A stretch of 64,000 nucleotides of DNA from Streptomyces gobiensis. Lineage in GTDB: Bacteria > Actinomycetota > Actinomycetes > Streptomycetales > Streptomycetaceae. Each line of letters starts with the position of its first letter. The stretch's first letter is position 1. Both the position numbers and the translations under genes were made by a program. Shown piece after piece: positions 30,546 through 34,049 of the stretch. The notes beneath the pieces are model-generated. The model made no database searches and was not told the origin of the DNA. It saw only the letters and a list, made by a program, of their open reading frames with translations. Location: the NCBI RefSeq assembly GCF_021216675.1, contig NZ_CP086120.1, positions 3,222,501 to 3,286,500 of the forward strand, written 5' to 3'.

Positions 30546-30598
30546 AGGTGGCATGCTGTTCTTGGGAGACGCCGACATCACGACTCCTGGGGGTATCC

Positions 30599-30952
30599 AT
30601 GGTCTGGCGTAAAGGCGTTGAGGGCGATCACGCGGCGGAGCTCGCGGGGGCCCGGCTGGCGCGGCAAGCGACCGCGTCGTTGGCTGGGCTGCTGGCCGAG
30701 CGCGGTATGTCCCGTAAGGACTTGGCCGATTGTATGGGTGTGTCACCCGGAAGGGTCAGTCAGATTCTGTCCGGAGACGAGAACCTGACCATGCGGTCGC
30801 TCGCGGCGGTCGCCGAAGCGCTCAGTGCGCAGGTGGAGATCACGTTCTTCGATCCACCGATACCCAGCCAGCCGGAGCCCAGAGAATCCACGGCACCCGA
30901 GACCGGCCCCCTGACCGGCTCCTTCGTGTCATCGTCCCAATTCACCAACTAG
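30599..30952 (+). CDS. XRE family helix-turn-helix regulator
   Basis: The ATG at 30599 follows GGGGG and gives 117 residues. The XRE-type helix-turn-helix is MSRKDLADCMGVSPGRVSQI (about 38-57), followed by LSGDENLTMRSLAAVAEALS. This is the form of small antitoxin-like or phage-repressor-like regulators. The C-terminus is a Pro/Ser-rich tail. It converges with the membrane protein gene at 30977, only 24 nt away, next to the lasso peptide genes, and might regulate that locus. Targets unknown. Confidence 0.82.
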   Translation: MVWRKGVEGDHAAELAGARLARQATASLAGLLAERGMSRKDLADCMGVSPGRVSQILSGDENLTMRSLAAVAEALSAQVEITFFDPPIPSQPEPRESTAPETGPLTGSFVSSSQFTN

Positions 30953-30976
30953 CCAGCTCACGAACAGCCAGTCGGC

Positions 30977-31840
30977 TCATGAACTGACTGGTTCCTGTGT
31001 CTGGTGAGGCATGTGCTGCTTCTTCAGCTCCAGAAGCCTTGTGTCATTGCTGCGTTTGCCGTGCGCGTGCGCTAGCTCAAGCAGGCGCTCGCAGTAGTAC
31101 TGGGCCTCGCCGAAGGCCCGTCTGACCTTGAGGATTTCCGCATGTGTGCGGTGACGCGCCTGCTGCTGGCATGCGTTCTCGATCTCCGACTCAAGGGTGG
31201 CCCATGCCTGTGCCGCGGTGCGCACTTCCTTGTAGCGCTCAGCGATCTCGCGCCGCATATTGCTGCGCGTTCTGCTGGGACGTCCGGGCACATCGACCCG
31301 CAGCAGCAGATGATGTCTGACGCTGTCGGCATAGATGCCAAGATCCCAGCAGTCCGGGAAGCCGCTGGCCAGACGGTGGCACCAGTCGGCCCGGTCGGTC
31401 CGCAGCCGCAGCGCCAGACTGTGCAGCAGCAGCGAGTTACCCAGGGTCAGCACCGCCATCACGGCATTCCCACTGCGCTGTTCCGACCGGCCCTTGGGAG
31501 CCATCCCTAATCCCGCCATGGCACCCACCGCCGCCGGCGGCACGCTCGACGCGTGGGGCAGCAGCAGGCCGCTGGCCAGCGCCGCCATGCCAGCCGTCCA
31601 CAGCACCACGGCCACCGTCAACGCCGTCGAGCGGACCGTGCCCAGCAGACGTCCGTCCTCACGGAAGCGGTAGACCAGGCACACCCAGGTCACGGGCACA
31701 CAGACGGCAGCGGGCAACACCCACGCTGACACCACGGACGCCTGTCCCCACGCCACCTCGTCCCCCATTCCGGTCGCAGACGGCGAGGCCCTTCGCGACG
31801 TCGGATCAGAGCAGCCTGACCACGTGTTGCCCAACCCCAT
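30977..31840 (-). CDS. hypothetical membrane protein with cytoplasmic helical domain
   Basis: The N-terminal half holds three likely membrane helices (SAWVLPAAVCVPVTWVCLVY, ALTVAVVLWTAGMAALASGL and NAVMAVLTLGNSLLLHSLAL). The C-terminal half is a soluble, basic, helical domain rich in Arg and Glu (from RREIAERYKEVR to LLELKKQHMPH). The start is uncertain: ATG 31840 is given, ATG 31768 would begin just before the first helix. It weakly recalls the MAB_1171c-type proteins often paired with XRE regulators in actinobacteria, but I cannot confirm that. It follows the lasso cyclase on the same strand and could be part of that locus, for example export or immunity; this is speculation. Confidence 0.6.
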   Translation of the reverse strand: MGLGNTWSGCSDPTSRRASPSATGMGDEVAWGQASVVSAWVLPAAVCVPVTWVCLVYRFREDGRLLGTVRSTALTVAVVLWTAGMAALASGLLLPHASSVPPAAVGAMAGLGMAPKGRSEQRSGNAVMAVLTLGNSLLLHSLALRLRTDRADWCHRLASGFPDCWDLGIYADSVRHHLLLRVDVPGRPSRTRSNMRREIAERYKEVRTAAQAWATLESEIENACQQQARHRTHAEILKVRRAFGEAQYYCERLLELAHAHGKRSNDTRLLELKKQHMPHQTQEPVSS

Positions 31841-31968
31841 GGCCCACTCGACTCGACACCTTCTCACGCAGCGCCCCAAGGCGACTACTGAGTGATGTTC
31901 CCACTATGGCCACTACCGCGTACAACGATCCGGCCAGCTCTCCGAGCGGGAGTAAGAATCCCGCCAGC

Positions 31969-33846
31969 TCATGGTGTCTCACCGGTGAACGCGTCGGACA
32001 GCGGCTTGCTGCGGTCGGGGCCGGAACGCAGCCAGACCTCGCAGCCCAACGTCGCGTCCAAGGGCTGTAGTACGTCCGGCCCAGGGTGCAGCCCCAGCAC
32101 AGCCGCACGCAGGGCATCGACGTTCACCAGCCCGCTCTGGGCCAGCAGGGAATCGTCGAACAGGGCGAGCAGCTCGGCCCGGTTCTGGCGGAGCCCGGCA
32201 TGGAAATCTGCGCTGAAGTTCCCTTTGGTGGAACGCTGGAGGACCGACTCAGGAACGATCCCTCGCATGACGGCCGCCAGCACCGGTTTGTACCGGGCGG
32301 GCGCATTGCGCTGATGCACCCGTACGGACAGCGCTGCCTCGATCACCCCGTCGTCGAAATAGGGCGCCGCGTACTCCACGCCCAGGCGGCTGGTGACCTC
32401 GTCCATCTGATGGATGCCGCTTCCTGCGGCCCGTACGCACTGGAGCGCCGTGTGCTGCCCTCGCTGCGGTGACAGCGGATCCGGTGCGCTGCCGGCGGCT
32501 TCCCGCAGCAGGCCGCGTACAGCCTCGACCGCTTCGGGTGTCGCCCAGGGAGGTATACGCGGGGTGGCACCCCAGGACAGCGAAGGAACATGCGGGCCGG
32601 GCTGGCTGGCTGGGCCGTGCGTGCCGGGCGATGTGGCGGGCTCCGCCGCGAGGCCGTCCGCGGCGGCGGCCAGCCACGCGCCGAATGTGTCGCGCCGGGT
32701 CAGCTCACGCAGCACCGGCCACAGCGGCCACCGCCGGTGGGCGTGCTGCCTGCGGATGCGGGCGAGCGCTGCCAGCGGACGGCGGCGGATGAGGTCGTGG
32801 AGGTGGGCGGGTGGTGCACAGAACAGCTCGTCGCCGCCGCCACCGCAGATATGCAGCCGCGATCCCCGGTCGGCCATCTGCTCGACGGTCGCCAAACTCC
32901 TGGCCCCGGCGCGCACCCATACGCTCGGCTCCGCGGTCGCGGCGTCCAGTCCGGTCAGCCCGGCGAACCACAGGGGGGTGTCGGCCGGGCCGGGCACCAC
33001 ATGCTCGATGTCCGGCAGCTCGGCGACGGCACGTTCGGCCCAGACACGGTCGTCGTTCTCCGGGTCCATGCCTTCCCACCGCAGGGTGACCAGCCGTGCC
33101 GCGCCCCGGGCCGCCAGGAAGCACAGGCTGGTGGAGTCCATGCCGCCGGACAGGTCCGCGCTCACCGTTCCGCCACCGGCCGTGCAGGACTCCACCGCGG
33201 TGGTCACCGCGCCGCGTACCGCGGACACCCCCTGCTCCGCCGGGAGAACCGGGTCCGGAGGGCTCCACCACCGGATGGAGCGGGCGCGCCCGGCCGGGTC
33301 GATCAGCAGACAGTGGTCGGGCCGCAGGGCCGCCAGCCCCTGCCACACGCACTGGTCATCCAGCGGATACGGCGGCACCGGAAACAACAGCCGCAGCGCC
33401 AGCCGCGGTATCTCAACGCCCGCCCCGGTCACCGACGCGAGCACACTCGCATGGCTGGCGGCCACCGTCACACCGGCCACCCGCGCGTGGAAGACCCGCC
33501 GTACGGCGGAGGCGCTGCCCCGCACCCGGACCTGGCCGTCCATCGAGGTGACCAGATGGAAGCTGCCCGCCAGGCCCTCGGCCGCCCGCTCCGTCTCCGT
33601 GATGTCCCGCATCCGCTCCAGCCGCGCCGACAGCGCATCGGCGGTGACCGGGCAACGCCCGATCACCGCCAGCCGTGCCGCCCCCGCCTTGGCCACCCTC
33701 ACCTGTCCGTCCGGCCAGCTGCCCAGCAGCCACGGCCGCCCCGAACCATGAGCGATCACCTTGGCCGCACGGGGGCGCAGCACCCGCGCCGCGGCGAGAC
33801 CCGCTTCACCGTCCGGCAGGACCGCGAACCACACCTCACCCGACAT
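31969..33846 (-). CDS. asparagine synthetase-like lasso peptide cyclase
   Basis: This protein of about 625 residues belongs to the AsnB-related lasso macrolactam synthetases (LasC/McjC type). These adenylate an Asp/Glu side chain of the core peptide and form the isopeptide ring with residue 1. The N-terminal glutaminase-like domain (about 1-215) lacks the catalytic Cys2 of true asparagine synthetases. The ATP-pyrophosphatase motif SADLSGGMDSTSLCF (about 235-249) is intact, and a second conserved segment is HICGGGGDELF. The C-terminal region QMDEVTSRLGVEYAAPYFDD carries the usual synthetase motif. ATG 33846 is chosen, 10 nt after the precursor stop; TTG 33864 would overlap the precursor. The pairing with a lasso precursor makes the assignment strong. 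Confidence 0.88.
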   Translation of the reverse strand: MSGEVWFAVLPDGEAGLAAARVLRPRAAKVIAHGSGRPWLLGSWPDGQVRVAKAGAARLAVIGRCPVTADALSARLERMRDITETERAAEGLAGSFHLVTSMDGQVRVRGSASAVRRVFHARVAGVTVAASHASVLASVTGAGVEIPRLALRLLFPVPPYPLDDQCVWQGLAALRPDHCLLIDPAGRARSIRWWSPPDPVLPAEQGVSAVRGAVTTAVESCTAGGGTVSADLSGGMDSTSLCFLAARGAARLVTLRWEGMDPENDDRVWAERAVAELPDIEHVVPGPADTPLWFAGLTGLDAATAEPSVWVRAGARSLATVEQMADRGSRLHICGGGGDELFCAPPAHLHDLIRRRPLAALARIRRQHAHRRWPLWPVLRELTRRDTFGAWLAAAADGLAAEPATSPGTHGPASQPGPHVPSLSWGATPRIPPWATPEAVEAVRGLLREAAGSAPDPLSPQRGQHTALQCVRAAGSGIHQMDEVTSRLGVEYAAPYFDDGVIEAALSVRVHQRNAPARYKPVLAAVMRGIVPESVLQRSTKGNFSADFHAGLRQNRAELLALFDDSLLAQSGLVNVDALRAAVLGLHPGPDVLQPLDATLGCEVWLRSGPDRSKPLSDAFTGETP

Positions 33847-33856
33847 GGCGTCCGCT

Positions 33857-33997
33857 TCAGCCAAGGAAGGGCTCGTAGAGGGGGAGCGACGGAAGGAAGT
33901 CCAGCTCTGGCCCCTCCGGGATGCCCCGGGTCAGCTCGGCGAACTCACCGACCTCCACCAGCGCCGGAGGCTCGTACACCTGGTCACGGCTTTCCAT
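33857..33997 (-). CDS. lasso peptide precursor
   Basis: ATG 33997 is preceded by AAGGGG at 6 nt and encodes 46 residues. The leader contains YEPPALVEVGEFAELTRG, matching the actinobacterial lasso leader pattern Y-x2-P-x-L-x3-G-x-F. Thr at position -2 of the cleavage site is followed by Arg -1 and Gly +1. The core would have 22 residues, starting GIPEGPELD and ending YEPFLG. Asp9 (9-residue ring) or Glu7 (7-residue ring) are the possible ring acceptors. Tail residues F10, L11, Y17 and F20 could act as steric plugs. The cyclase gene starts 10 nt downstream. The product is not one I recognise. No B1 or B2 gene is adjacent. Confidence 0.85.
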   Translation of the reverse strand: MESRDQVYEPPALVEVGEFAELTRGIPEGPELDFLPSLPLYEPFLG

Positions 33998-34049
33998 CGA
34001 GATCCCCTTCCGGTGTTTTCTGCTGCGGCGCGGGGGTCCGCACGCCGTC

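Follow-up and report, generated by a model that had tools for sequence, protein, structure and literature searches.

In lasso peptide biosynthesis, a B1 protein binds the leader of the precursor, a B2 protein cuts the leader and the cyclase C closes the threaded core with an isopeptide bond. The 64-kb stretch of DNA analysed here (the window) includes a precursor gene, A, and a cyclase gene, C, with neither B1 nor B2 beside them. How could such a pair yield a lasso peptide, and does it still do so in this strain? The locus is a real lasso locus, of a known kind with a variant architecture.

The precursor gene and the cyclase gene

The precursor gene is found on the minus strand at 33857-33997 (46 codons), and a Shine-Dalgarno-like GAAGGGG, read from the sequence, lies 6 nt upstream of its ATG (34004-34010, minus strand). 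Its product matches the NCBIfam model lasso_leader_L3 (NF033521) with 36.5 bits, where the cut-off is 19. The 24 aa leader, MESRDQVYEPPALVEVGEFAELTR, includes the YEPPALVEVGEF motif and has Thr at -2. The 22 aa core, GIPEGPELDFLPSLPLYEPFLG, is encoded at 33860-33925 (minus strand), with Gly1 and Asp9 as the predicted ring residues. A shows every feature sought in a lasso precursor: the motif in the leader, Thr(-2), Gly1 and, within core positions 7-9, an acidic residue. A is the sole open reading frame in the window with this combination of leader, Thr(-2), Gly1 and acidic residue, and there were no matches in 50 Markov-randomised copies of the window to the pattern, which was composed after the family had been inspected.

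The precursors of the nearest subfamily share YEPPxxVEVGxFxxLT and have Gly at core positions 1 and 5 and an acidic residue at position 9, as in cores that begin GEALGAHYE, GVPQGNWPD and GYPSGSVID; the window core begins GIPEGPELD. As the acidic position 9 is conserved, Asp9 is the likely ring residue, and a Gly1-Asp9 ring is likely for the window peptide. The recomputed monoisotopic mass of the lasso form is 2381.219 Da, with predicted ions at m/z 2382.23 (1+) and 1191.62 (2+).

The cyclase gene begins 10 nt past the stop codon of A and extends over 31969-33846 on the minus strand. It encodes 625 aa with no internal stops and an intact PP-loop (SGGMDSTS), and the protein matches PF00733 with 120 bits. 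An AlphaFold2 model (mean pLDDT 90.3, pTM 0.91) was closest, in a fold search, to the solved structures of an AsnB-like hydroxyamidotransferase, beta-lactam and carbapenam synthetases and asparagine synthetases; a sequence search returned no homologue among solved structures. In a tree of 79 cyclases, built with a short search and a single support value, C is nested within a lasso cyclase clade of 35 rows (support 100). C is thus an AsnB-like cyclase of the lasso clade. Its sister group (support 95) comprises 24 rows, 18 of which have B1 and B2 adjoining. With truncated cyclases left out, C has changed six of 128 clade-invariant residues, and members linked to B1 and B2 at a similar distance have changed three to nine. 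Judged by its sequence, C looks maintained, with no signs of decay, and either the loss of B1 and B2 was recent or C is still used.

A sequence-only reading of the window had proposed a 46-codon lasso precursor gene with a Shine-Dalgarno site, followed after 10 nt by an AsnB-like cyclase with an intact SGGMDSTS motif, and both genes stand as described. Its preference for Asp9 over Glu7 is supported by the subfamily, and its mass of about 2381.2 Da agrees with ours. It had held that absence of the small gene from relatives that keep the cyclase, or a cyclase placed outside the lasso synthetases, would tell against the locus; a small open reading frame with the same leader is present in such relatives, and C falls within the lasso cyclases.

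Immediately downstream is a 19-codon open reading frame (31913-31972, minus strand) whose ATG overlaps the stop codon of C (ATGA), the position at which B1 starts in several relatives. It has no similarity to B1 and is possibly a vestige of translational coupling, or due to chance. A neighbouring 300 aa open reading frame was considered as a gene truncated by a B1/B2 deletion and rejected, as its homologues align from residue 38, which is likely the true start. The region 30548-31879 includes two convergent genes, one for an XRE-type regulator and one of approximately 263 aa that has no Pfam match. This pair recurs in three other Streptomyces (L211-L213), with 62-69% identity, away from lasso loci.

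B1 and B2 in the window and the genome

When the window was searched with profiles, and by tblastn with B1 and B2 proteins of the family, nothing convincing was found for either gene, and no remnant of them was detected downstream of C. The genome is a single contig of 5,691,859 bases that is 99.99% complete. Searches of the whole genome for a lasso B1, using Pfam, NCBIfam and purpose-built alignments, returned no match with an alignment even at E 0.1 (150 of the 166 first-look candidates were scored). A PF05402 match was rejected as the missing B1 because it is the PqqD of the PQQ cluster, and the genome has no other PqqD-like RRE. A PF13471 match was likewise rejected as the missing B2 because it is a dead fragment. 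Neither a B1 (RRE) nor a functional B2 is therefore present at the locus or elsewhere on the chromosome.

The PF13471 match, at C1:3090649-3090858, is the only B2 match in the genome. It covers positions 47-115 of 136 and sits 164 kb from the A-C pair, at a separate locus. Both the N-terminus and the C-terminus of B2 have been lost, and the catalytic His has been replaced by Arg (SRAW, versus AHAW in 20 of 20 aligned B2 proteins). A deletion has joined the fragment to a methyltransferase gene in an in-frame fusion (L195:7650-8880, corresponding to G000:C1:3090649-3091879), and the PCMT-like part is frameshifted. Streptomyces eurocidicus (L218) has intact B2 and PCMT genes that match the fragment and the fused methyltransferase at approximately 80%, and there they lie in a complete A-C-B1-B2-PCMT cluster. 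No remnant of a cyclase or B1 gene was found in the 16 kb surrounding the B2 fragment. To judge from its genes, this relic derives from the tail of a second lasso cluster, one still intact in S. eurocidicus. As the remnant is truncated, lacks the His, is fused and is frameshifted, we conclude that the second cluster, a possible source of B1 and B2, has decayed.

As B1 is gone and B2 is reduced to a dead fragment, no lasso product of the window locus is expected, and the strain probably makes no lasso peptide now. The sequence-only reading had reported no B1 or B2 gene in the window, as these searches bear out, and had suggested that they were either encoded elsewhere or lost. The genome scan for a PqqD-like RRE and a lasso B2 that it called for yielded only the PqqD and the dead fragment, which favours loss in this strain and tells against a location elsewhere on the chromosome. 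Among the matches listed, about 94 sampled Streptomyces genomes had a strong cyclase match (E<=1e-75), and besides the window genome only G197 had no B2 match; the G197 cluster is cut by the end of its contig, of which B1 occupies bases 128-379. The best B2 match was partial or weak in three further genomes (G118, G174 and G265), all of which have B1 matches.

Two non-canonical proteins of this genome, one for leader recognition and one a protease, could stand in for B1 and B2. RiPP precursors with lasso-type leaders can be cleaved by other proteases, as where an RRE acts with a signal-peptidase-like enzyme (PMC13381572), and the genome does contain one PqqD-like RRE. However, that PqqD serves the PQQ pathway only, the neighbourhood of A and C includes no protease-like or RRE-like gene, and the window leader is of the standard B1 type. 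We regard such a substitution as highly improbable.

Half-clusters in other Streptomyces

The closest cyclases of the same genus share 54-61% identity with C and are mostly found in the order A-C-B1-B2, with B1 beginning at, or shortly past, the cyclase stop codon. When 84,980 species genomes were scanned with the cyclase alignment, 80 loci were returned, the best with approximately 62% identity to C. Members of the same subfamily, with cyclase identities of 57-62%, are present in Streptomyces klenkii, Streptomyces diastatochromogenes, Streptomyces mashuensis and others. Well-supported branches of the cyclase tree force at least six changes to or from the cyclase-only state, a count in which gain and loss are indistinguishable, and the cyclase-only state thus arose repeatedly.

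In a profile survey of the 80 loci, an A-C pair lacking B1 and B2 within 7 kb downstream was found in Streptomyces sp. CB02923, Streptomyces monomycini, Streptomyces lilacinus, where an upstream assembly gap conceals most of the precursor, and Streptomyces hoynatensis. Each of the four genomes does encode full B1 and B2 at other loci, and only these could mature the product of the half-cluster. For CB02923 and S. monomycini, they belong to other, complete lasso clusters. The half-cluster cyclases of these two species differ with a dN of 0.045 and a dS of 0.524 (YN00), close to the values for their flanking genes (0.026/0.635 and 0.037/0.569) and for a pair of cyclases linked to B1 and B2 (0.032/0.244). 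It follows that in this pair, the only one in which it could be measured, the half-cluster has been under purifying selection once parted from B1 and B2.

S. hoynatensis has three cyclase loci and, genome-wide, a single B1 and a single B2, which lie apart. One locus is an A-C pair (L133), the second is A-C-B1 (L198), and the third cyclase has no B1 or B2 within about 6 kb (L217). Within 15 kb of the lone intact B2 (L197) there is neither a cyclase nor a B1 or a precursor. As the only B1 and B2 are at separate loci, any lasso peptide of S. hoynatensis needs trans-acting enzymes. The lasso machinery of this species is spread over at least four loci.

Loci with the order A-C-B2 and no B1 were found in Streptomyces olivoreticuli, for which the genome is complete, Streptomyces caatingaensis, Streptomyces iconiensis and S. 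eurocidicus. At these loci (L067, L074, L091 and L092) the gap between the cyclase and B2 is too small for B1, which is found elsewhere in the genomes. Cyclases lacking B2 in Spongiactinospora and Streptosporangium were set aside as support, with no precursor found and the PP-loop Asp lost in Streptosporangium. The lasso-type Spongiactinospora cyclases (L079:7001-8827 and L080:1062-2900) are flanked by a TenA-like gene on one side and an ABC transporter on the other, with no recognisable precursor and no B2 in either genome, yet their dN/dS is low (0.023/0.361). The cyclase of Streptosporangium sp. KLBMP 9127 (L081:7001-8743), which has SGGLGST in the PP-loop and changes at further invariant residues, is probably a dying gene.

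The explanation that we favour, and consider fairly probable, is that the window half-cluster relied on B1 and B2 encoded in trans and was stranded once their donor cluster decayed. A B1 recognition protein would have bound the precursor at the YEPPALVEVGEF motif of the leader, a transglutaminase-like B2 protease would have cleaved after Thr(-2)-Arg(-1), and the ATP-dependent cyclase would have closed the Gly1-Asp9 ring around the tail, with B1 and B2 both coming from elsewhere in the genome. Decay of the second lasso cluster would then have left A and C on their own. Both maturation in trans and this order of events, reliance first and loss of the donor second, are inferred.

Alternatively, an ordinary A-C-B1-B2 cluster may have deleted its own B1 and B2 with no prior phase of dependence in trans. 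The 24-row sister clade consists mostly of A-C-B1-B2 clusters, and the overlap of the stop codon of C with an ATG resembles the overlap with the B1 start in relatives. Set against this, A and C are both wholly intact, no remnant of B1 or B2 is present downstream, and loci lacking B1 and B2 persist elsewhere under purifying selection. We recognised no deletion scar at the window locus, as synteny of the flanking genes does not extend to the relatives examined. With no scar and no close relative that keeps the earlier state, direct decay is hard to separate on present data from stranding after loss of a donor, though we rate it as very unlikely.

It is also conceivable that the locus still works, with B1 and B2 supplied in trans by a plasmid outside the assembly and the strain making the 2381.2-Da lasso. 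A one-contig assembly may lack plasmids, lasso cyclase genes are found on Streptomyces plasmids, A and C are intact and conserved, and half-clusters are under purifying selection in genomes with B1 and B2 elsewhere. The absence of both genes from the chromosome counts against it, and we find plasmid supply quite unlikely; the ion of the window peptide is probably not made unless B1 and B2 come from outside the chromosome. A broader proposal, that half-clusters are a functional and recurrent actinobacterial architecture in which several unlinked A-C pairs draw in trans on one B1 and one B2, and that the window peptide is still made with plasmid-borne or unrecognised B1 and B2, appears unlikely.

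Genome mining for lasso peptides usually seeks adjacent cyclase, B1 and B2 genes. Half-clusters would escape such mining or be counted as broken, though they are kept intact in several species that encode B1 and B2 at other loci. In the literature searched, mostly outside subscription journals, we found no description of lasso loci that lack B1 and B2 and are supplied in trans. If sharing in trans is true, one B1/B2 pair can mature several precursors, which bears on the evolution of lasso peptide diversity and on the choice of promiscuous B1 and B2 for engineering. The half-clusters that accompany unlinked B1 and B2 genes across species are a more interesting result than the window copy. The window strain illustrates a possible outcome after loss of a shared donor, and offers a clean background free of B1 and B2 for complementation.

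Comparison with known systems

The window locus shares the YxxPxLxxxGxF leader, Thr(-2) and the AsnB-like cyclase with actinobacterial A-C-B1-B2 clusters, and differs in that B1 and B2 are missing from the locus and functional copies are missing from the chromosome. The best curated family match of C is the albusnodin/ikarugamycin macrolactam cyclase family (NF033561), which aligns to residues 20-608 with 290.8 bits. However, this is below the curated cut-off of 300, so C falls short of the subfamily threshold, and A matches the albusnodin precursor model weakly (19.3 bits; cut-off 30). No acetyltransferase was recognised adjoining A and C.

The relic elsewhere in the genome resembles, on its genes alone, the B2-PCMT tail of the aspartimide lasso clusters (cellulonodin-2/lihuanodin), which include a PCMT-like methyltransferase and whose chemistry has been reviewed (PMC9266682); in the window genome that tail is separate, decayed and 164 kb from the A-C pair. 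The unclustered lanthipeptide proteases (PMC8960859) are a known case of RiPP maturation enzymes whose genes lie apart from the cluster that they serve. Those are different proteases of a different RiPP class, whereas here recognition and cleavage of the leader would both be unlinked.
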